Shown: positions 28,820-49,992 of the stretch, piece after piece
Layout: every line of letters begins with the position of its first letter
Position numbering within the stretch: position 1 is the stretch's first letter
DNA from: Hyphomonadaceae bacterium
GTDB lineage: Bacteria > Pseudomonadota > Alphaproteobacteria > Caulobacterales > Aquidulcibacteraceae
Reading direction: 5' to 3'
Assembly (NCBI GenBank): GCA_019636095.1
Contig: JAHBYF010000001.1
Coordinates: 186,001 to 250,000 of the forward strand
DNA: 64,000 bases
The notes under the pieces: model-generated
Seen by the model: the letters and a program-made list of their open reading frames with translations, nothing else
What the model was told of the DNA's origin: nothing
Database searches by the model: none
Position numbers and translations under genes: made by a program

Positions 28820-28983
28820 CGCATCGCCTGATGGTTCCGACTTGTGCGCCTCCCTGCCATGGGCCTGGGCGCCAAAGCGCTAACATCGCCGCGCATGGCG
28901 ACCCATTTTGGGCAGGGTGGGCGACCTACAAGGCTTGCCGGCGTAGCCGGCGTGCGTGGTCGAACACTTGTGCCAGCGGCGCG

Positions 28984-29363
28984 TCAGGCGGAACCAGGCG
29001 CGCCGCTGACCGCCGTCTCCAGCGTCTCGACCAGTTGAACGCGGCCGAATGGGCGCACCAGCAGGGCGCCTGGGCCCAGTGCCGCAGCTTTTCACGCGCG
29101 TGCGGGCGCATAAGCTCAGGCCAAGTGGCGACGACGACGATCTTGAGATTCGGTGAGAGCCGCCGAGTCGAAGCAATCAGCGTGTGGCCTTCAGTTTCGG
29201 ATGTGCCGAGGCCCAGGATCAAGACGTCAATGGGCTCGCGCCCGTGGCGATGCAGCCCGGCGCTGGCATTGTCGGCGGTTGCGATCCGATGGCCGGCGCT
29301 GACCAACTCCTGGCACAAGACCTGGTTGAACGCTTCATCCCGCTCGACAACCGACACCCGCAT
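28984..29363 (-). pseudogene. Frameshifted paralogue of the pseudo-receiver at 49615
   Basis: The frame from the ATG at 29363 (MRVSVVERDEAFNQVLCQELVSAGHRIATADNASAGLHR) is closely similar to the intact protein at 49615-49992 up to AREKLRH. The similarity then jumps to another frame (GPGALLVRPFGRVQLVETLETAVSGAPGSA, stop at 28984-28986). One base seems missing in the CTGCGGCACTGGGCC stretch around 29075. As read, the protein continues to 28926 in an unrelated frame. Like its paralogue it has Gly where the phosphorylated Asp is expected (DVLILGLG). Confidence 0.7.
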
Positions 29364-32211: not shown

Positions 32212-32571
32212 ATGCGTACATCTTCCGCCGCTGCGGCGCTTATTCTCGGCCTTTCGCTGGCGACGCCAAGCGCCCTCGCCAAGCCGAACGATCAGCTCAG
32301 GATTTCCGAGAGCGCCTCCGCGGAAGCGCGTGCTGCGTTTGCGAACTGGGTCGAAAACGACCGCATCCGCGGTCAACGCGAGCGCTGCTATGGCATTGCG
32401 CTCGCCGGCGAAAACGACTGCCGCGCCGGCGCTGGCACCACCTGCGCGGGCACTTCGACCGTGAACTTCCAAGGCAACGCCTGGACCTATGCGCCGGCCG
32501 GAACCTGCGCGCACATCGTGACGCCGGCGGGTGAAGCATCGCTCAACGAACTTGACCGCAACAATCCGTAA
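32212..32571 (+). CDS. bufA1: Bufferin precursor, DUF2282 family (BufA1-like)
   Basis: 119-aa secreted peptide precursor. Signal peptide residues 1-23 ([23 protein letters not shown]). The mature core has four cysteines at positions 59, 70, 78 and 99 in [19 protein letters not shown] and WTYAPAGTC, the spacing typical of DUF2282. Characterised relatives are modified on Cys by an MNIO enzyme and bind copper in the periplasm. A GGAG site and SigF-like promoter precede it, and the MNIO, HvfC/BufC-like and DoxX genes follow, the classical order. The tail after Cys99 ([11 protein letters not shown]) is longer and more polar than usual. Confidence 0.88.
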
Positions 32572-32587
32572 GCGGTCAGGGGGTCGC

Positions 32588-33430
32588 GTGGACGCTGCGA
32601 CGTTGCCCCCGTGCGCTGGCGTCGGGCTCAAGCCCGAACACTACCGCGCGGCCCTCGACTGCGATGCAGAAGGACTTTGGTTCGAGGTCCACCCCGAAAA
32701 CTACATGATCGCCGGCGGCCCGCGCCACGCTTGGCTTGAGGCCATTGGCGCGCGCCGCCCGCTTTCATTCCATGGGGTAGGCGCTTCGCTGGCGGGTCCC
32801 GATCCGCTGGACGAAGAGCACCTTTTGCAATTGCGTGCGCTCATCGATCGCTATCATCCGGCCCAGGTCTCCGAACACGTCGCCTGGTCCGCCGCGGGCG
32901 GCGCCTATTTCGCCGATCTGTTCCCGTTGCCTTACACACAGGAGGCGGTTCGCCATCTCGCCGAGCGGGTCGACGCTTTTCAGAACGCAATCGGCCAGCG
33001 CATCCTGATCGAAAATCCTTCAGCCTATGTGGCGCTGCGCTCGGACATGAGCGAGCCGGAATTTCTGGCTGAGATCTGCACGCGCAGCGGCTGCGGGCTC
33101 TTGCTCGACGTCAACAACGTCTATGTCTCCGCCAACAATCTCCGCTTCGACGCGGCCGCTTATCTCGACGCCATCCCCGGCGCACTGATCGGCGAGATCC
33201 ACCTCGCCGGTCACGCCGCCGATCCCGTGCTTGGGGCGGCGCTTTTGATCGACTCTCACGCAGCGCCCGTCGCTGCGCCGGTTTGGGCGCTTTACCAGCG
33301 TCTCATCGCGCGCGTTGGCCCGCGTCCAACGCTGATTGAGCGCGACGCAGCGTTGCCGCCGTTCGCAGAGCTGATGCTTGAGCGCGAACGCGCCGGCGGC
33401 GTGCTCGCCGGCGCATTGGAGGCGGCGTGA
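32588..33430 (+). CDS. bufB1: MNIO family enzyme (DUF692), bufferin maturase BufB-like
   Basis: Multinuclear non-haem iron-dependent oxidase with a TIM-barrel fold, which in characterised systems converts Cys of the precursor into a copper-binding heterocycle. 280 aa from the GTG at 32588 preceded by AGGGGG; an upstream start at 32531 would overlap bufA1. Metal-site segments: EVHPENYMIAGG, LSFHGVGASLAG, SEHVAWS, ILIENPSAY, GLLLDVNNVYVSANN, GEIHLAGH and TLIERDAALPP. The usual Trp of EWD is Arg here (ERD). Overlaps the next gene as TGATG. Confidence 0.9.
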   Translation: MDAATLPPCAGVGLKPEHYRAALDCDAEGLWFEVHPENYMIAGGPRHAWLEAIGARRPLSFHGVGASLAGPDPLDEEHLLQLRALIDRYHPAQVSEHVAWSAAGGAYFADLFPLPYTQEAVRHLAERVDAFQNAIGQRILIENPSAYVALRSDMSEPEFLAEICTRSGCGLLLDVNNVYVSANNLRFDAAAYLDAIPGALIGEIHLAGHAADPVLGAALLIDSHAAPVAAPVWALYQRLIARVGPRPTLIERDAALPPFAELMLERERAGGVLAGALEAA

Positions 33431-34203
33431 TGACAAGCCTCTCCGACTTCCATGCTGCGTTCGCCGCCGCGGTAAGCTCCGGCAAGACTGCCGCGTTGGC
33501 GCCGTTTCTGATTGATCAAGACCAGGGCGCGCGGGTCTATCGCAACAATGTGCTGAGCGCTGTCGCGGGGGCCTTGGCGTCGAGCTTCCCGGCGGTGCGC
33601 CGGCTGGTGGGCGAGGATTTCTTCAACGCCGCCGCCGCTGCTTACTTTGCAGCGGCGCCGCCACGTTTGCGCACGCTGGTGGCCTACGGCGAAAGCTTCC
33701 CGCGCTTTTTGGAGACGATGCCCTCAGCCATGGCGACGCCATACCTTGGCGACGTCGCCCGGCTCGACCGCGCCTGGCTCGAGGCCCACATCGCCGCCGA
33801 GGCGCCGGCGCTCGCACCGGGCGACCTGGCGCACTTGGATGCGGACGCGTTGGCCGCAGCGCACGTGACGCTACATCCGAGCGCGCGGCTCGTGCATTGC
33901 GGCTGGCGCATCCATGACATTTGGGTCGCCAACCGAGCGGACGGGCCCGCCGCGCAGGCCCAGCACACGCTCACGCGTGGCGCGCAAGCAGTGCTGGTGT
34001 GGCGCCATGGCGGAGAGGTTCAGCACCGCGTACTGAGCGTGGGTGAGGCTGGCTTTCTAAGCGCACTGGATCAAGGCGCAACGCTCGCCGCCGCCGCCGG
34101 CGCAGCCTTGGCTGCTGAGCCGGACGCCGATGTGAGCGTACTATTCGCAGGCGCGCTGGCTGGCGGCGTGCTCGGGCGCAGGCAAGGGGAGGACAGAATA
34201 TGA
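33430..34203 (+). CDS. bufC1: DUF2063 / HvfC-BufC-like bufferin partner protein
   Basis: 257-aa protein whose N-terminal half is the DUF2063 putative DNA-binding domain: FLIDQDQGARVYRNNVLSAVAGALASSFPAVRRLVGEDFFNAAAAAYF, with the conserved PRFLE and YLGDVARLDRAW. Members pair with MNIO enzymes and are thought to deliver the precursor peptide, not to regulate DNA. The C-terminal half (LTRGAQAVLVWRHGGEVQHRVLSVGEAGFLSAL) resembles a RiPP recognition-type partner. It is translationally coupled on both sides (TGATG upstream, ATGA downstream). Confidence 0.85.
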   Translation: MTSLSDFHAAFAAAVSSGKTAALAPFLIDQDQGARVYRNNVLSAVAGALASSFPAVRRLVGEDFFNAAAAAYFAAAPPRLRTLVAYGESFPRFLETMPSAMATPYLGDVARLDRAWLEAHIAAEAPALAPGDLAHLDADALAAAHVTLHPSARLVHCGWRIHDIWVANRADGPAAQAQHTLTRGAQAVLVWRHGGEVQHRVLSVGEAGFLSALDQGATLAAAAGAALAAEPDADVSVLFAGALAGGVLGRRQGEDRI

Positions 34204-34685
34204 CAAGCGAAGCGGCGCCGGGCGGCGCCATGCTGAAGCGTGCAGGTACGCTCTATGTTGCCGGGGCGGGCTTTGCCGACGCCTGGCTGCGCCCCATCGC
34301 CTTGCTGGGCGCGCGCTTGCTAGTGGCGCGCGTGTTTTTCTTGTCCGGGATGACGAAATGGAACGGCCTCACCATTCGCGATGACGCCTCTTATCTTTTC
34401 GCCGACGAATACTTCGCCAAATACGCATTGCCTTCCGGACTGACGAACACGTTCACGGTGATGGCGGCGATCGGCGAGATCGCGCTGCCGGTTCTGTTGG
34501 CGCTGGGCTTGTTCTCGCGGTTCGCCGCCGCCGGTCTGCTGGTGATGACGGCGGTGATCCAGATTTTCGTTTATCCGCAGGAATGGTGGACCGTGCACGC
34601 CTGGTGGATGGCGGTGCTTGCGGTGCTAGTCACGGTTGGGCCGGGCGGCTGGTCGTTGGATCGAGCGCTCAAGCTTGAGCGGTGA
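34200..34685 (+). CDS. bufD1: DoxX-family membrane protein (BufD-like)
   Basis: 161-aa protein with four hydrophobic helices: LLVARVFFLSGMTKW, AAIGEIALPVLLALGLFSRFAAAGLLVMTAVIQIFVYP and AWWMAVLAVLVTVGPGGWSLDRAL. The opening GARLLVARVFFLSGMTKWNG and final GGWSLDRAL are standard DoxX features. DoxX genes are the usual last member of bufferin operons; their task there is not settled. It shares an ATGA overlap with the preceding gene. Confidence 0.85.
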   Translation: MTSEAAPGGAMLKRAGTLYVAGAGFADAWLRPIALLGARLLVARVFFLSGMTKWNGLTIRDDASYLFADEYFAKYALPSGLTNTFTVMAAIGEIALPVLLALGLFSRFAAAGLLVMTAVIQIFVYPQEWWTVHAWWMAVLAVLVTVGPGGWSLDRALKLER

Positions 34686-34700
34686 CATGGGGAGGATGCG

Positions 34701-35165
34701 ATGAAGCTTGAACGCATAGCCAGTTGGATATTGGCGCTCGGATTTGCCGCGGCGCTCGTCTTCATGGTCGGGCTGCCGAAATTCATCGGCCCTGCGCCCA
34801 ATCCGATCTTCGCGCTGATCGAAGGCCGCTCGGGCATCGCCCTGTTCGAGCCCGAGCTCCGATACCTGACCGGCGCCGGCGAGTTTGCCGCCGCGTTGCT
34901 CCTCATCGTTCCGCGCACGCGCTTCTACGGGGCGGCGCTAGCTGGCCTGATCACGTTGAGCGCGATTGGTTTTCATCTGTCGCCGTGGCTCGGCGTGGAG
35001 ATTCCGGAAATGGGTCAGCTGGCGGCGCTGCTGCAAGAGGGACGATCGGTGGCGGAGATCGACGCCATGAACTTGCCGACCGATGGCGGTGCGCTTTTCT
35101 ATACGGCGCTTCTGTTCCTCGCCGCGTCGGCGGCGCTACTCTGGCTGGAGCGCAAACGCCGCTGA
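34701..35165 (+). CDS. Second DoxX-like four-helix membrane protein
   Basis: 154 aa starting at 34701 with GGGGAGG upstream. Four hydrophobic segments: ILALGFAAALVFMVGLPKFIG, GAGEFAAALLLIVP, YGAALAGLITLSAIGFHLSPWL and FYTALLFLAASAALLWLE. The arrangement resembles DoxX-like proteins, but the loop GVEIPEMGQLAALLQEGRSVAEIDAMNLPTDGG is unusual. It is 15 bases after bufD1 and so belongs to the same transcription unit. Function unknown; a respiratory or redox role is possible given the following genes. Confidence 0.6.
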   Translation: MKLERIASWILALGFAAALVFMVGLPKFIGPAPNPIFALIEGRSGIALFEPELRYLTGAGEFAAALLLIVPRTRFYGAALAGLITLSAIGFHLSPWLGVEIPEMGQLAALLQEGRSVAEIDAMNLPTDGGALFYTALLFLAASAALLWLERKRR

Positions 35166-35242: not shown

Positions 35243-35470
35243 ATGACGGAGCGCGTTGCTGAACTGATCTGGCTCTGCCTTGGCGCTTACGCAGCCATCG
35301 GCGTGTTGGTGTCCCTCGCGCTGCTCTTGGGCGGCTTGCGGCGCATCGATGCCGCCATGGCCGCCGCGCCGCTGCGCGTGAAGGCGCTGATCGCGCCGGG
35401 CATCGTCATGTTGTGGCCGTTGCTCTTGCTGCGGTACTTCGGCGTCAAGCCGCGCGAGGATCGATTATGA
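35243..35470 (+). CDS. 75-aa two-helix membrane protein in the redox operon
   Basis: MTERVAELIWLCLGAYAAIGVLVSLALLLGGLRRIDAAMAAAPLRVKALIAPGIVMLWPLLLLRYFGVKPREDRL has two clear transmembrane segments joined by a short basic/alanine loop. It is separated by 77 bases from the preceding gene and overlaps the next by ATGA. The family is not recognised; the tight coupling suggests a subunit or assembly helper for the ferric-reductase-like/Rieske protein. Confidence 0.65.
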   Translation: MTERVAELIWLCLGAYAAIGVLVSLALLLGGLRRIDAAMAAAPLRVKALIAPGIVMLWPLLLLRYFGVKPREDRL

Positions 35471-35604
35471 ACCGCCGTCAGCGGCGCGGCCATGCTCGGC
35501 TTTGGCCGTTGCTGGCGCTCATCATGCTCGCGGTGATCGGAGCGGGCATCTACGCCAAATACCGCCTCGCTGACGCTGTGGCCGCCGCTGCGGAGGTTCG
35601 GTGA
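35467..35604 (+). CDS. 45-aa single-helix membrane peptide between redox genes
   Basis: The frame MNRRQRRGHARLWPLLALIM..., ending AAAAEVR, starts in the ATGA overlap with the 75-aa gene and its TGA overlaps the ATG of the next gene. It has a very basic N-terminus (five Arg in the first ten or so residues) and one hydrophobic helix (LWPLLALIMLAVIGAGIYA). The double coupling argues that it is a real gene. No homologue is recognised. Confidence 0.6.
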   Translation: MNRRQRRGHARLWPLLALIMLAVIGAGIYAKYRLADAVAAAAEVR

Positions 35605-36659
35605 TGGCGCATGGCTATCGCGTCGTTCAGTGGACGCCGTTCAAACGGGCCTTCGATAGCGTCCTTCTCTTGAGCGTGGCGGCGTTCCTGATCGCTTTTA
35701 TCGCCGCATCGCTTGCAGCGTTTCCTGGCGAACGCGCCGTTAGCGCAATACAGCTCTTGATCCGCGCCTTCGGCGCGTGCGCTTTCGCATTGCTGACGTT
35801 GATCTTGATGATCGGTCCGCTGGCGCGTATGTCGCCGCGCTTCCTGCCGCTGCTCTACAACCGCCGCCATTTAGGCGTGACGTGCTTTCTGTTGGCGCTC
35901 GCGCACGCCGGGCTCGTTTTAGTCTGGTATCACGGTTTCGGCGCGATCAATCCGCTGGTGTCGCTCTTGGTGTCCAATCCGCGCTATGCTGCGATTGTCG
36001 GCTTTCCGTTCGAAAGCCTTGGCCTCGTCGCGCTTTTGATCCTCTTCGTGATGGCCGCGACCAGCCATGACTTCTGGAACGCCGTACTGGGGCCGCGCCT
36101 GTGGAAGGCGCTGCACATGGGCGTTTACTGGGCCTACGCGCTCATCGTCGCTCATATCGTGCTGGGCGCGGTGCAAGGCGAGAAAGGCCCAATCTACGCA
36201 ATCGTGGTTGGTGTAGGCGCCGCCCTTGTTGTTGGCCTGCACTGGCTTGCGGGCGCTCGCGAGGTGCGCGCGGATGCGACGCTGGCGCCGGAGGAGGAGG
36301 GCTGGCTGCGTGTCGGGCCGGCGCTTGAGATACCCGATCAGCGCGCGCGGATCGTAACGCCGGCGGCCGGCGAACGCATCGCGGTGTTTCGTGACGGGGC
36401 CAAGATCTACGCCGTCTCTAATGTGTGCCGTCACCAGGGCGGCCCGCTCGGCGAGGGACGCATCGTCGACGGGTGCGTAACCTGTCCCTGGCACGGCTTT
36501 CAGTATCGGCCGCAGGATGGCTGTGCGCCATCGCCGTTCACCGAGAAGATCGCCACCTATCGCACCCGTATCGAAGCCGGCGTGGTCTTTGTGCATCCCA
36601 CGCCGGAGGCGCCGGGCACGTCGATCGCACCGTCATTGGTTGAAGTGAGCACGCCATGA
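35604..36659 (+). CDS. Ferric-reductase-like transmembrane domain fused to a Rieske [2Fe-2S] domain
   Basis: 351-aa membrane redox protein. Residues about 20-210 have six to seven helices of the ferric-reductase-like (MsrQ/NOX-type) domain with His pairs expected to bind b haem (RHLGVTCFLLALAHAGLVLVWYHG; KALHMGVYWAYALIVAHIVLG). Residues about 230-340 form a Rieske domain with C275-x-H277 (VCRHQGGPLGEG) and C294-x-x-H297 (CPWHGFQY). This would carry electrons between a [2Fe-2S] centre and membrane haem; the direction is unknown. It overlaps neighbours on both sides. Confidence 0.85.
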   Translation: MAHGYRVVQWTPFKRAFDSVLLLSVAAFLIAFIAASLAAFPGERAVSAIQLLIRAFGACAFALLTLILMIGPLARMSPRFLPLLYNRRHLGVTCFLLALAHAGLVLVWYHGFGAINPLVSLLVSNPRYAAIVGFPFESLGLVALLILFVMAATSHDFWNAVLGPRLWKALHMGVYWAYALIVAHIVLGAVQGEKGPIYAIVVGVGAALVVGLHWLAGAREVRADATLAPEEEGWLRVGPALEIPDQRARIVTPAAGERIAVFRDGAKIYAVSNVCRHQGGPLGEGRIVDGCVTCPWHGFQYRPQDGCAPSPFTEKIATYRTRIEAGVVFVHPTPEAPGTSIAPSLVEVSTP

Positions 36660-37408
36660 GCAAGGAGGACTTTTTCATCGGCTGGAGCGCGCAGACGCCG
36701 CGCGTCGATCGGCGCTTCATGCTGGCGGCGAGCGCCGGCCTCATTGCGAGCGCGGCCGGCGCGGGCGCTCTTATGGCGTCGGCGCACGACAGCGCCGTCG
36801 GCGGACGCTGGGATGGCGTTGTGCGCGACTGGACTGGCTTGTTGCTGAGCGAGCCTTATCCGCTGTTGCGCACGCTTGACCTCGATGGAACGCCGCGCAC
36901 GGCGTTTCTGGCTACGTCCCGCAAGACCGCCGTTCGTGCGCCAGCGCATTTAGACGGCGCTTTCGTGCGCGTGCGCGCCGGTCTGATCGCGCGCGACAAT
37001 CACGCCATGCTGGCGGTGGCCGACGGCGAGGCAGGGATCGTGGCCGACGCAGCGGCGGCGCCCGCGTCGTTGCTTGATTGGCCCGCCGTGGCGGCGGGCG
37101 ATGTGATGCTTACCGGCGAAATTCTCGACGCCAAGTGCTGGTTCGGCGCCATGCGCCCAGGGTTTGGCAGAACCCACAAGGCCTGCGCTGCGTTGTGCAC
37201 CCGCGGCGGCTTGCCGCTCGCGTTCTGCGTCGGCAGTGTTTGCTCGCTGGGCGGGGAGGCGCCGCTCTTGCTCGATGCTGGCGGACGCCCGCACGGGCGC
37301 GCGATTCTGCCGCTGGTGGCCGATCCGGTTGTGCTGCGCGGGCGTCTCGTCCAAGTCGGCGACGTTCAACAGATTCGCGCTGACCTTGGAGCGATCCACA
37401 GATTGTAG
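36656..37408 (+). CDS. Tat-signal-like protein with conserved Cys motif, partner of the Rieske proteins
   Basis: 250 aa. The N-terminus has RVDRRFMLAASAGLIASAAGAGAL, a twin-arginine-type signal or anchor. The middle has few marks. Residues about 155-190 contain GEILDAKCWFGAMRPGFGRTHKACAALCTRGGLPLAFC, with four Cys and a His, suggestive of a metal or haem site. I know similar DAKCxFGAM...HKxCAxxC segments from proteins next to Rieske/ferric-reductase-like genes, but no function is established. It is coupled to the gene upstream by ATGA. Confidence 0.6.
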   Translation: MSKEDFFIGWSAQTPRVDRRFMLAASAGLIASAAGAGALMASAHDSAVGGRWDGVVRDWTGLLLSEPYPLLRTLDLDGTPRTAFLATSRKTAVRAPAHLDGAFVRVRAGLIARDNHAMLAVADGEAGIVADAAAAPASLLDWPAVAAGDVMLTGEILDAKCWFGAMRPGFGRTHKACAALCTRGGLPLAFCVGSVCSLGGEAPLLLDAGGRPHGRAILPLVADPVVLRGRLVQVGDVQQIRADLGAIHRL

Positions 37409-37432
37409 GATCGCCGGCGATTGGAGACCGGC

Positions 37433-39415
37433 ATGGCCAAGAACGAACCCGAGCTGGTTTGGCACAAGGTCGCCGAACTGAACGAGTTGGCCGAGGGGCG
37501 TGTCAAATCAGCGTCCGCTGGGGCGCGGTCGTTGGCGATCACACACTTCCAAGGCCGCTACGCGGCAATGGACAATCGTTGTCCACATCAGGGCGGACCG
37601 CTCGGCGAGGGGTCGATCGAGAAGGGCGCTGACGGCAAATGTTGGTTGCGCTGTCCGTGGCACGGCTGGGATTTCGATCCGCTGACCGGAAAGGCGCCCG
37701 GCGGCCACGACGATGACGGACAAAAGATGTTTCCGATCGAGATGCGCGCGGACGGACTTTATGTCGGCGTGCCCGCCGCGCCGCCGCGCCAGCGCACCGT
37801 CTCAGACCTCATGGTCGAGACCATGATCCATTGGGAAGTGACCACCGTGTTTGGCATGGTGGGGCATTCCAATCTCGGGCTCGCCGATGCGCTCCGTGTG
37901 CAGGCCGAGGCCGGCAAGCTCAATTATTACGGCGTTCGCCATGAAGGGGCTGCGGCGTTCGCGGTCTCGGGCTACGGCAAGCTCACCGGCATGCCGGCGG
38001 CGGCGCTGACCATCGCCGGTCCCGGCGCAACCAATCTGCTGACCGGGCTATGGGACGCCAAGGTCGACAGCGCGCCGGCCTTGGCGCTGACCGGGCAGGT
38101 GCAGGAGCAAGTGCTCGGCGTGCACGCGTTTCAGGACATCGATCTTGAAGCGGCGTTCGAAGCGGTGGCGGGTTTCTCGCAGACCGTGCACCCGAGCTCC
38201 AACCATGCCGCTTTGATGGCGCAAGCGATCAAGACCGCGCGGGTCGAGCGCGGGGTCAGCCATCTGGTGTTTCCCGATAACGTGCAGCCGCGCCCTGCCG
38301 ACGATGACGCCAAAGCGTTGACCCCGCATGGCCGGCTCGCCAACCGTGCTGTAGGTCCCCCGGCCGGCGCTTTGCAGGACGCGCTCGCACTTGCGGCCCA
38401 GGCCAAGCGGCCGATGATCATCGCCGGCTATGGCGCGTTGGGCGGCATGGGCGCAGTGATCGCGCTTGCGGAAAAGATCGGCGCGCCGGTCGCCACCACG
38501 TTCAAGGCCAAAGGCCAGATCGCCGACGCCCATCCGCTGGCCGCGGGCGTGCTTGGCCGTTCGGGCACGCCGATCGCCTCCTGGTTCATGAATGAAGCCG
38601 ATCTGTTGATCGTGTTTGGCTCGTCTTTCTCCGATCACACCGGCATCTATCCGGACGCTAAGATCATCCAGGTCGACACCGACCCGATGCGCATCGCCAA
38701 GCGTCACCCGGTGACGGCGCCGGTATTGGGCGATGTGGCGGTGACCGCCGATCTGATGCGCGATGCCCTTAGCGGCTACCAAGATCAACGCGCGGAGATC
38801 GCTGAGCGTTGGCGGCTGTGGCGCGCGGAGAAGGCGGCGCGCCTGGATGAGGATCGCGGCAAGGGCGTCTCCGCAGCGGCGCTGTTCGAGGCGTTGACGC
38901 GGTACGCGCCGGAGGATGCGATCCTCCCCGTTGACGTCGGCAACAACACTTATTCGTTCGGTCGCTATTTTGAGCCCTCCGGCAAGCAGCGCGTGCTGAT
39001 GTCGGGCTATTTGGGGTCGATCGGATTCAGCTTTCCAGCGGCCATGGGCGCGTGGGCGGCGACGCAGGACCGGCCTGAGTATCGCGACCGCAAGATCATC
39101 TCTGTCTCGGGCGACGGCGGCTTTGGTCAATACGCGATGGAGTTCACCACCGCGGTCAAATACGGCATGAATATCTGTCACGTGCTGATGAACAACGCCC
39201 AGCTCGGCAAGATCTCGAAGGAGCAGCGCGCGGGCGCGTTCCCGGTCTGGCAGACCGATCTCGTCAACCCGTCCTTTGCCGGCTTTGCCCGCAGTTGCGG
39301 CGGCATGGGCCATCTCGTGCGTTCGCGCGCCGAACTGGACGCGGCGCTGAAGGCGGCCATTGCGCACAACGGTCCAGCGTTGCTTGAAGTCCTGACCGAT
39401 CCGGAACTGATTTAG
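37433..39415 (+). CDS. Rieske [2Fe-2S] domain fused to a thiamine-diphosphate enzyme (pyruvate oxidase/acetolactate synthase-like)
   Basis: 660 aa. Residues 1-115 are a Rieske domain with C50-x-H52 (CPHQGGPLGEG) and C74-x-x-H77 (CPWHGWDF). From about residue 120 a complete ThDP enzyme follows: catalytic Glu in YGVRHEGAAAFAVSGYGKLTG, TIAGPGATNLLTG, a central domain (AKRPMIIAGYGALGGMG) and the ThDP/Mg motif GDGGFGQYAMEF...VLMNNAQLG. No FAD-specific motif was recognised. It could pass electrons from an alpha-keto-acid oxidation directly to the Rieske centre. The ATG at 37433 is chosen over the TTG at 37421. It ends the operon. Confidence 0.85.
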   Translation: MAKNEPELVWHKVAELNELAEGRVKSASAGARSLAITHFQGRYAAMDNRCPHQGGPLGEGSIEKGADGKCWLRCPWHGWDFDPLTGKAPGGHDDDGQKMFPIEMRADGLYVGVPAAPPRQRTVSDLMVETMIHWEVTTVFGMVGHSNLGLADALRVQAEAGKLNYYGVRHEGAAAFAVSGYGKLTGMPAAALTIAGPGATNLLTGLWDAKVDSAPALALTGQVQEQVLGVHAFQDIDLEAAFEAVAGFSQTVHPSSNHAALMAQAIKTARVERGVSHLVFPDNVQPRPADDDAKALTPHGRLANRAVGPPAGALQDALALAAQAKRPMIIAGYGALGGMGAVIALAEKIGAPVATTFKAKGQIADAHPLAAGVLGRSGTPIASWFMNEADLLIVFGSSFSDHTGIYPDAKIIQVDTDPMRIAKRHPVTAPVLGDVAVTADLMRDALSGYQDQRAEIAERWRLWRAEKAARLDEDRGKGVSAAALFEALTRYAPEDAILPVDVGNNTYSFGRYFEPSGKQRVLMSGYLGSIGFSFPAAMGAWAATQDRPEYRDRKIISVSGDGGFGQYAMEFTTAVKYGMNICHVLMNNAQLGKISKEQRAGAFPVWQTDLVNPSFAGFARSCGGMGHLVRSRAELDAALKAAIAHNGPALLEVLTDPELI

Positions 39416-39584
39416 GATTGTGGGCGCGGAGTAATTCACGCCTGCCGCGCAGCTGGACAGCAACGCAATTTGGGCGTTGCTTGGGACTGCCGACGAAATG
39501 TGTCCCTATGGGGATATCAGCGCCTCTATTGCGGCGGCGGACTCCAGTCACGGCTGGATGGGAAACGGAATGACGTCAGTGGCG

Positions 39585-40667
39585 ATGAACCGTAGACATT
39601 TCTCCGGCTTGGCTCTTGGCGCGGTCGCGCTAGGCTGTAGCGGCAAACCCGACAGGTTGTCCTTGCAGTCATTTCAAGCCCCCGCCGAAGACGCGCCACA
39701 TGCGCGGACTTGGATGTGTTGGCCGTCGACGCCCTCCCTCTACGGCGGTCGAGGCGCTTATTATGAGAGCGTGCAGGAGTCGATCGGGCGCCTCGCTGCG
39801 GCGATTGCTGAGCACGAGCCGGTCACCATGCTGGCCGATACGTCAGTTCATCTGCTTGCGACGCGCCTATGCGGGCCGCGCGTACAAATGCTTGACGTGG
39901 CGACGGATGATATGTGGGCGCGAGACAGCGGTCCGGTCTTTGTGCGTTCCGCAACGGGCGCCAAGGCCGCTGTGGACTTCAACTTCAACGCCTGGGGCGA
40001 CAAGCAAAGACACGCGAGGGATGGTCTAGTCGCGCGCGCCATCGCGGCGAGGGCAGGCTGCGATAGGGTCGAAACGCATCTCGTGGGCGAAGGCGGCGGG
40101 CTGGAGTATGATGGCGACGGCACTCTGATCCTGACTGAGAGCTGTTGGGTGAACGACAACCGCAATCCTGGGCTCTCGCGCGATGAGATCGAGATGGAAC
40201 TGAAGCGCCTGCTGGGCATCGAAACGGTGATCTGGATCCCGGGCGTCCGCGGCCTCGACATCACCGACGGTCACATTGATGGCTCAGTTCGCATAGTGCG
40301 CCCCGGCGTACTGATGATGGCCTTCAACCCGGAAGACACGACCGAAAATGCTGACGCCCAGGCAGAAGCCAAGAACATTCTGTCACGAGCGCGCGATGCG
40401 CGGGGCCGTGCGTTTGAAATCGTCGAGATTGAAGATGCTCTTCGGACGCGCTCACGGCGCGCGGACTTCTTCTCCGGCTACGCCAACTACTATGTCGGCA
40501 ATGGCGCGCTCTACTCGCCAGAGTTTGGTGATGCTCGCGCCGATAGCCTCGCTCGCGTCGCTTTCGAGCGGCTCTATCCTGGCCGCCGGATCGTTACGCT
40601 TGATCTGGACAGGGTTTATGAGAACGGCGGCGGGGTTCACTGCGTGACGCAACAAGAGCCGGCGTGA
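39585..40667 (+). CDS. Agmatine deiminase / peptidyl-arginine deiminase family protein, exported
   Basis: Guanidino-group hydrolase (PPAD/AguA fold) that would turn agmatine into N-carbamoylputrescine and ammonia. 360 aa from MNRRHFSGLALGAVALGC; this N-terminus has an RR and a marginal lipobox, so export or lipidation is plausible and unusual for AguA. Catalytic residues are visible: DDMWARDSGPVF, GEGGGLEYDGDGT, DGHIDGSVRI (His/Asp) and the C-terminal nucleophile in ENGGGVHCVTQQ. An ATG at 39570 is an alternative start. It is a single gene, 169 bases after the Rieske-ThDP gene. Confidence 0.85.
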   Translation: MNRRHFSGLALGAVALGCSGKPDRLSLQSFQAPAEDAPHARTWMCWPSTPSLYGGRGAYYESVQESIGRLAAAIAEHEPVTMLADTSVHLLATRLCGPRVQMLDVATDDMWARDSGPVFVRSATGAKAAVDFNFNAWGDKQRHARDGLVARAIAARAGCDRVETHLVGEGGGLEYDGDGTLILTESCWVNDNRNPGLSRDEIEMELKRLLGIETVIWIPGVRGLDITDGHIDGSVRIVRPGVLMMAFNPEDTTENADAQAEAKNILSRARDARGRAFEIVEIEDALRTRSRRADFFSGYANYYVGNGALYSPEFGDARADSLARVAFERLYPGRRIVTLDLDRVYENGGGVHCVTQQEPA

Positions 40668-49614: not shown

Positions 49615-49992
49615 CTAGCCGGCGTCAGGCATGCCGGCGACCGCGCTCTGCAATGTTTCGATAAGTTGCGCGCCGTCGAAAGGGCGCAAGAGCAGCGCGT
49701 CGGCCCCCAGTTCGCTCAGGCGTTCGCGAGCGCTCGACTGCATTAGCTCGGGCACACTGGCGACGATGATGATCTTGAGTTCCGGGTAGACCTGACGGAT
49801 CCACGCCGTGATGCTATTGCCGCTGGTGTGGGAGGCGCTGATGCCCAAGACCAGCGCGTCGAACACGTCCGTGCCGAGGCGGTGCAATCCGGCATTGGCG
49901 TTGTAAGCAGTGGCGACCCGATGGCCGGCGTTGGCCAGTTGGCATAGGATCTGATTGAACGCCTCGTCCCGCTCGACAACACACACCCGCAT
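49615..49992 (-). CDS. Stand-alone pseudo-receiver (atypical response-regulator) protein
   Basis: 125-aa single receiver-like domain: MRVCVVERDEAFNQILCQLANAGHRVATAYNANAGLHR. The acidic pocket (ERDE) is present, but the expected phospho-Asp position reads DALVLGIS (Gly instead of Asp) and the conserved Lys before Pro is Arg (LLLRPFDGAQLIETL). It therefore probably works without phosphorylation, for instance as a binding partner. It lies 70 bases after the winged-helix gene on the same strand. A frameshifted copy is at 28984-29363. Confidence 0.75.
   Translation of the reverse strand: MRVCVVERDEAFNQILCQLANAGHRVATAYNANAGLHRLGTDVFDALVLGISASHTSGNSITAWIRQVYPELKIIIVASVPELMQSSARERLSELGADALLLRPFDGAQLIETLQSAVAGMPDAG

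Follow-up and report, generated by a model that had tools for sequence, protein, structure and literature searches.

The window analysed here, a 64,000-nucleotide stretch of the genome of a Hyphomonadaceae bacterium, carries on its plus strand a gene that joins a Rieske iron-sulfur domain to a complete thiamine diphosphate (ThDP) enzyme. The fusion protein is encoded by a single open frame (37433..39415) and is 660 amino acids long when read from its ATG, with an in-frame alternative TTG start at 37421. Its N-terminal part is a Rieske [2Fe-2S] domain (37460..37699, residues 10-89; PF00355, 57.1 bits against a cut-off of 20.3) with the ligands Cys50 (37580) and His52 (37586) in a CPH motif and Cys74 (37652) and His77 (37661) in a CPWH motif. 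Three ThDP domains follow on the same strand: TPP_enzyme_N, the PYR domain (37796..38146, residues 122-238; PF02776, 96.7 bits), where the catalytic-type Glu171 (37943) sits in an RHE motif; TPP_enzyme_M (38375..38749, residues 315-439; PF00205, 116.6 bits), which is the FAD/ADP-binding domain in relatives; and TPP_enzyme_C, the PP domain (38933..39391, residues 501-653; PF02775, 110 bits), with GDGG at 560-563 and NN at 587-588 (the second being N588). A sequence-only reading of this DNA had described Rieske Cys-His pairs (50/52 and 74/77) ahead of a whole ThDP enzyme with a catalytic Glu and a GDG...NN motif; the Pfam domains bear this out, the residue numbers are exact and both catalytic elements could be located. 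Pfam finds only Rieske-type and TPP_enzyme_N/M/C domains in the protein, and no POR-type domains, [4Fe-4S] ferredoxin motifs or fused NAD(P)H reductase domain.

High-potential, bc-type Rieske proteins carry two further cysteines, at His+3 and Cys+2, that form a disulfide. In the fusion, the motifs read CPHQGG and CPWHG, with Gly and Trp at these places. Since the extra cysteines are absent, the attached centre is expected to be of the low-potential type.

The fusion gene is the last of a cassette of five, arranged head to tail on the plus strand with overlaps or, at most, a 24-base gap: two small membrane proteins, FRD-Rieske, TM250 and the fusion itself. The first small protein has 75 amino acids (35243..35470); relatives of it precede the FRD-Rieske gene at 30 of 32 loci, versus 0 of 32 random control stretches. 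The second (45 amino acids, 35467..35604) overlaps the FRD-Rieske start and is weakly conserved. FRD-Rieske, two genes upstream of the fusion (35604..36659; start at GTG 35601 or ATG 35604), is a six-TM b cytochrome of the ferric-reductase type with a C-terminal Rieske domain (PF01794 and PF00355). All 18 aligned rows share H90, H102, H156, H172, H185 and H214, in the membrane part or its loops, together with the Rieske residues C276, H278, C295 and H298. The protein resembles the MsrQ/YedZ-type heme b proteins in its Ferric_reduct domain, its six TM-like segments and a weak MsrQ match, but differs from them in its C-terminal Rieske domain and in having TM250, rather than a molybdoenzyme, as gene partner. 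TM250 (36656..37408) has a single TM helix at its N terminus plus another domain and belongs to no Pfam family. Its invariant residues are D158, C161, H174, C177 and C181 (the Cys and His residues in 28/28 rows). The predicted structure has a pLDDT of 88, and a search of its fold against the PDB gave no match at E <=0.001 (best E 0.044).

Upstream of the cassette lies a bufferin-type cluster (32212..35165, plus strand) with a DUF2282 precursor, the MNIO maturase BufB (scoring above its NCBIfam cut-off), DUF2063 and two DoxX/MauE-like membrane proteins. Directly 3' of the fusion, on the same strand, is a PAD_porph/agmatine deiminase-like gene (39477-40667) that stays under the agmatine deiminase cut-offs. 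Elsewhere in the window, two short response-regulator-like ORFs (28926-29363 and 49615-49992, minus strand, about 20 kb apart) look alike by eye and are apparently duplicated.

The fusion recurs well beyond this genome. A scan of named genomes gave at least 570 confirmed relatives among at least 585 stretches, of which we kept the best 80; these are 60-79% identical to the fusion in their best segment and belong to Alpha- and Gammaproteobacteria or to MAGs with the labels Acidobacteriota, Nitrospirales, Polyangia and Thermoleophilia. With relatives this similar in 80 named records, the fusion is a genuine Rieske-ThDP protein and not a chimera. Haloarchaeal plasmids bear it at 59-60% identity and a Mycobacteroides plasmid at 52%, so that the Rieske-ThDP combination is conserved from proteobacteria to haloarchaea. 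In the class, 13 of 289 genomes (the window's own included) carry the fusion at near its full 660-residue length, the other 12 at 55-73% identity. Below these there is a gap down to matches of 36% identity or less that are limited to the ThDP part, and no close unfused relative was seen in the 289 genomes. At an E limit of 1e-90, which hid unfused relatives, 5 of 398 phylum genomes had the fusion and two other searched members of the window's own family gave no match; its distribution is therefore patchy.

An alignment of the best 80 relatives with the window's protein (81 rows, one beginning at a contig edge) shows what has been kept. The four Rieske ligands are conserved in 80/80 of the rows that extend to them; for E171, Phe233, Gln234, D561, N588, Lys593 and Glu597 the figure is 81/81. 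The stretch between the domains (108-124) is 17 residues long in every one of the 80 rows reaching it, and this constant length reads as a Rieske domain rigidly attached to the ThDP part.

In nearest family model, tree position and fold, the ThDP part resembles oxidising enzymes such as pyruvate oxidase and PoxB, in line with the oxidative chemistry proposed in the sequence-only reading. The closest NCBIfam model is the pyruvate oxidase NF006377 (386 bits, next model 294), and the best PDB sequence match is E. coli PoxB (3eya). However, the fusion scores under every pyruvate oxidase cut-off (NF006377, 386 of 742 bits; NF006591, 279 of 792; TIGR02720, 270 of 638). In a tree of 35 ThDP domains, the 15 fusions form a single clade (100/100) that adjoins, but does not fall inside, a group (100/97) whose 14 rows are pyruvate oxidases and unfused kin; fusions and pyruvate oxidases together split from acetolactate synthases (95/97). 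Given this position and the scores below cut-off, the ThDP part is a lineage sister to the pyruvate oxidases that does not score as one of them. The pyruvate oxidases of the best family and adjoining clade (L. plantarum POX, Bacillus-type PRK08611) reach about 36% identity at best, lack a Rieske domain and differ in the FAD-loop motif.

The AlphaFold2 model of the fusion (pLDDT 87, pTM 0.85) is of one chain, whereas two chains together make up a ThDP site. Foldseek matched it to acetohydroxyacid synthase, PoxB, pyruvate oxidase and Corynebacterium pyruvate:quinone oxidoreductase, with a TM score of 0.87 on target for PoxB. VIA-align, whose rows cover residues 118-660 and thus leave out the Rieske part, superposed 506 residues on PoxB (3eya_G) at 2.7 A with a Z of 37.5, level with other ThDP enzymes. 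The fold is shared with PoxB, the ubiquinone-dependent pyruvate dehydrogenase (3eya/3ey9), over residues 119-659. Fusion residues Glu171, Phe233, Gln234, Glu597 and Asp415 correspond to Glu50, Phe112, Gln113, Glu469 and Asp292 of PoxB, and equivalents of PoxB Asp433 and Asn460 are also kept. Unlike PoxB, the fusion has an extra N-terminal Rieske domain, a changed FAD-loop motif, a place in a sister clade and an invariant Lys593 where PoxB has Phe465, a residue that matters for ThDP-to-FAD transfer. It also lacks the C-terminal tail of about 40 residues that forms the membrane-binding and quinone part of PoxB: residue 528 of 572 in PoxB aligns with 656 of 660 in the fusion.

Whether a flavin sits in the middle domain bears on the route that electrons would take. 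The FAD loop of pyruvate oxidases contains a PY (PoxB reads FPY), for which the window's protein and most fusions have S-D/N-H-T-G-I, and FAD is therefore not assured. On the other hand, conservation in the middle domain's nucleotide loops exceeds that of the rest (mean 0.88 vs 0.65), which makes a flavin between ThDP and the Rieske centre at least as likely as direct transfer.

Some members of the family have gained further clusters in the same chain. N-terminal CDGSH domains are present in 5 of the 13 class fusions (G001, G184, G232, G130 and G084), four of which additionally have Fer4_19, ahead of the Rieske domain; the fusion at locus L113 carries CDGSH too. The CDGSH-type fusions sampled in the ThDP tree (L014, L015, L016 and L018) cluster together. 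FRD-Rieske occurs in 7 of the 8 genomes with a Rieske-only fusion and Rieske-GltS in 6 of the 8, as opposed to none of the five with an extra-cluster fusion for either. This pattern fits in-chain clusters standing in for partner proteins, though several of the five CDGSH-type members are related. At two loci, GltS-like flavoproteins beside the fusion (L107:10972-12501 and L049:7229-8845) begin with a CDGSH or Rieske domain. Partners thus swap iron-sulfur modules. CDGSH combined with Rieske, Fer4_19 and Glu_synthase domains has been surveyed (PMC5859297), and the CDGSH proteins with Fer4_19, Glu_synthase or Rieske_2 reported there draw on the same set of modules that is found in and around the fusion family; the main text of that survey contains neither 'thiamine' nor 'TPP' nor 'pyruvate' and does not describe a ThDP fusion.

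Several recurring neighbours of the fusion are redox proteins. Around the best 80 of the at least 570 relatives, we find iron-sulfur-GltS at 49 loci (a cluster that takes in at least one CDGSH-GltS, L107), FRD-Rieske at 32, TM250 at 31, a cation/proton antiporter at 27 and a DUF5996-like gene at 17. For the 46 loci with both flanks at least 8.9 kb long, the respective counts are 35, 23, 22, 21 and 11; at 39 of these loci a GltS, FRD-Rieske, antiporter or DUF5996-like gene is present, alone or with others, and seven have no usual partner. Individual arrangements vary. In Halorarius, a plasmid has a CPA1-type antiporter gene after the fusion and Rieske-GltS nearby, and a Salinirubellus plasmid also has Rieske-GltS near the fusion; neither is among the features annotated on the stretches from Halorubrum and Haloferax. 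The Mycobacteroides plasmid combines the fusion with a CPA2-type antiporter and an FMN_red protein, and at L044 fusion, FMN_red and antiporter are consecutive. At another locus, FRD-Rieske is followed by a Rieske-FMN_red protein (L132:6257-7384), a further Rieske-flavoprotein fusion. Genes resembling ECF sigma factors and zinc-finger anti-sigma factors, named by eye from sequence, occur at 7 of the 80 loci each and may indicate stress control.

Co-occurrence across genomes points the same way for two of these partners. FRD-Rieske is found in 7 of the 13 class genomes with the fusion vs 8 of the 276 without it (13 and 15 of 289, together in 7; Fisher p 3e-7, kinship ignored). Rieske-GltS shares 6 genomes with the fusion (13 and 7 of 289; Fisher p 1.5e-8, kinship ignored); four genomes without the fusion (G202, G022, G211 and G287), in which a GltS relative matches at 67-69% over 129-538 only, were left out of the seven. 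A tree of 46 Rieske domains, for which other Rieske domains were sampled in six genomes (3 of 25 such rows were dropped because the matched stretch was out of frame), places those of the fusion and FRD-Rieske as sisters, apart from the other sampled domains, at 92/95, just under the star limit. The suggestion that the sister Rieske of the FRD gene is the next carrier thus gains ground, and FRD-Rieske is a likely partner. Coupling to partners is not uniform, however: FRD-Rieske occurs without the fusion in 8 of its 15 class genomes and lies apart from it in others, some loci are partnerless as noted above, and the window's own genome has no Rieske-GltS.

Taken together, these observations lead us, with moderate confidence, to view the fusion as a soluble, cytosolic 2-oxo acid oxidase of the pyruvate oxidase type that passes its electrons through the attached Rieske centre to a partner redox protein. 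The ThDP site would oxidise pyruvate or a similar 2-oxo acid in the cytosol, and electrons would travel, probably via FAD in the middle domain, to the rigidly attached low-potential Rieske [2Fe-2S] centre as acceptor, instead of to oxygen or, as in PoxB, directly to membrane quinone. In the window's genome, electrons would most likely move on to the b cytochrome FRD-Rieske, entering at its Rieske domain on the cytosolic side and leaving over its membrane hemes for quinone or TM250. Elsewhere the role of next carrier would fall to a glutamate-synthase-like flavoprotein with an iron-sulfur domain or to a protein resembling FMN reductase. We favour such a Rieske-wired oxidase because of the best family model, the nearest PDB sequence, the fold, the ThDP tree and the residues matched to PoxB; because the fixed linker amounts to rigid wiring; because further clusters have been gained; because redox partners (and the antiporter) lie nearby even on a haloarchaeal plasmid; and because FRD-Rieske accompanies the Rieske-only fusions and has the sister Rieske domain. 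Our analysis shows that the fusion exists and is conserved, that its ThDP part has the fold and family named above and that it is associated with the partners, while FAD content, the substrate, the direction of flow and docking with FRD-Rieske are inferred. The exchange of Phe465 for Lys593, the lost PY and scores far below the pyruvate oxidase cut-offs count against this reading, as do the genomes and loci in which fusion and partners occur apart.

It is also conceivable, though unlikely, that the enzyme is a non-oxidative ThDP lyase or carboligase whose Rieske domain acts as a sensor of redox state or metal, or helps assembly in the manner of the structural FAD of acetohydroxyacid synthase. 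Acetolactate synthases have the same ThDP fold and Phe-Gln pair and come out nearly level with PoxB in VIA-align and Foldseek, and neither Glu171 nor GDG...NN separates oxidase from lyase. The ThDP tree and family scores, however, favour the pyruvate oxidases, and the gained Fe-S domains and surrounding redox proteins suit electron transfer better than sensing.

We consider it improbable that the enzyme is flavin-free and that, as the sequence-only reading proposed, the ThDP enamine gives its electrons singly and directly to the Rieske centre, in the way that the [4Fe-4S] of pyruvate:ferredoxin oxidoreductase is reduced. The short rigid linker, the invariant lysine, the altered FAD loop and the multi-cluster variants (CDGSH, Fer4_19) would suit such a route; the well-kept nucleotide loops speak against it, as does the use of FAD by the closest oxidising relatives. 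A reversed flow, in which the Rieske domain receives electrons from partner flavoproteins or from the cytochrome and the ThDP site performs a reductive step or stays reduced under stress, tied to cation/proton antiport, is very unlikely: FMN_red-type partners (L044 and L144) could donate electrons and antiporters recur near the fusion, but no NAD(P)H reductase domain is fused to it and we know of no enzyme of the pyruvate oxidase branch that runs in reverse. That the fusion belongs to the adjoining bufferin copper system, from which 77 bases on the shared strand separate the FRD-Rieske group (last DoxX-like gene to first small gene), is scarcely credible and was rejected, since the precursor, maturase and DUF2063 genes are near the fusion at none of the best 80 of at least 570 loci, none of 12 FRD-Rieske or Rieske-GltS stretches has bufferin genes, so that the adjacency is taken as local to this window, and the main text of an MNIO survey (PMC12452194) has neither 'Rieske' nor 'thiamine'.

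Plasmid records label the fusion merely 'thiamine pyrophosphate-binding protein', and a literature search conducted outside most subscription journals found no paper on a Rieske-ThDP enzyme. Enzymes of the pyruvate oxidase type are known to have oxygen or quinone as their final electron acceptor. Pyruvate:ferredoxin oxidoreductase is like the fusion in idea, a ThDP enzyme feeding Fe-S clusters within one protein, but it is of another protein family, has [4Fe-4S] clusters and uses ferredoxins. The Rieske-wired oxidase, if true, would be a third solution beside these routes: an enzyme of the POX type that has Rieske and CDGSH clusters within its own chain. It would tie ThDP chemistry to a one-electron wire and offer a single-chain system for following transfer from a ThDP intermediate.

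More broadly, and only tentatively, there may be a widespread, so far undescribed bacterial and archaeal system in which a single chain of ThDP enzyme and Rieske domain (with CDGSH and Fer4_19 in some lineages) hands 2-oxo acid electrons, directly or via a flavin, to GltS-type Fe-S flavoproteins and to a membrane protein with Rieske and heme centres, which takes them into the membrane or across it, coupled to cation/proton antiport. The fusion family is accompanied by a recurring set of uncharacterised redox proteins, and, because its Rieske-ThDP combination is conserved from proteobacteria to haloarchaea, it suggests a little-studied route by which electrons from metabolic acids reach partner iron-sulfur and heme proteins.
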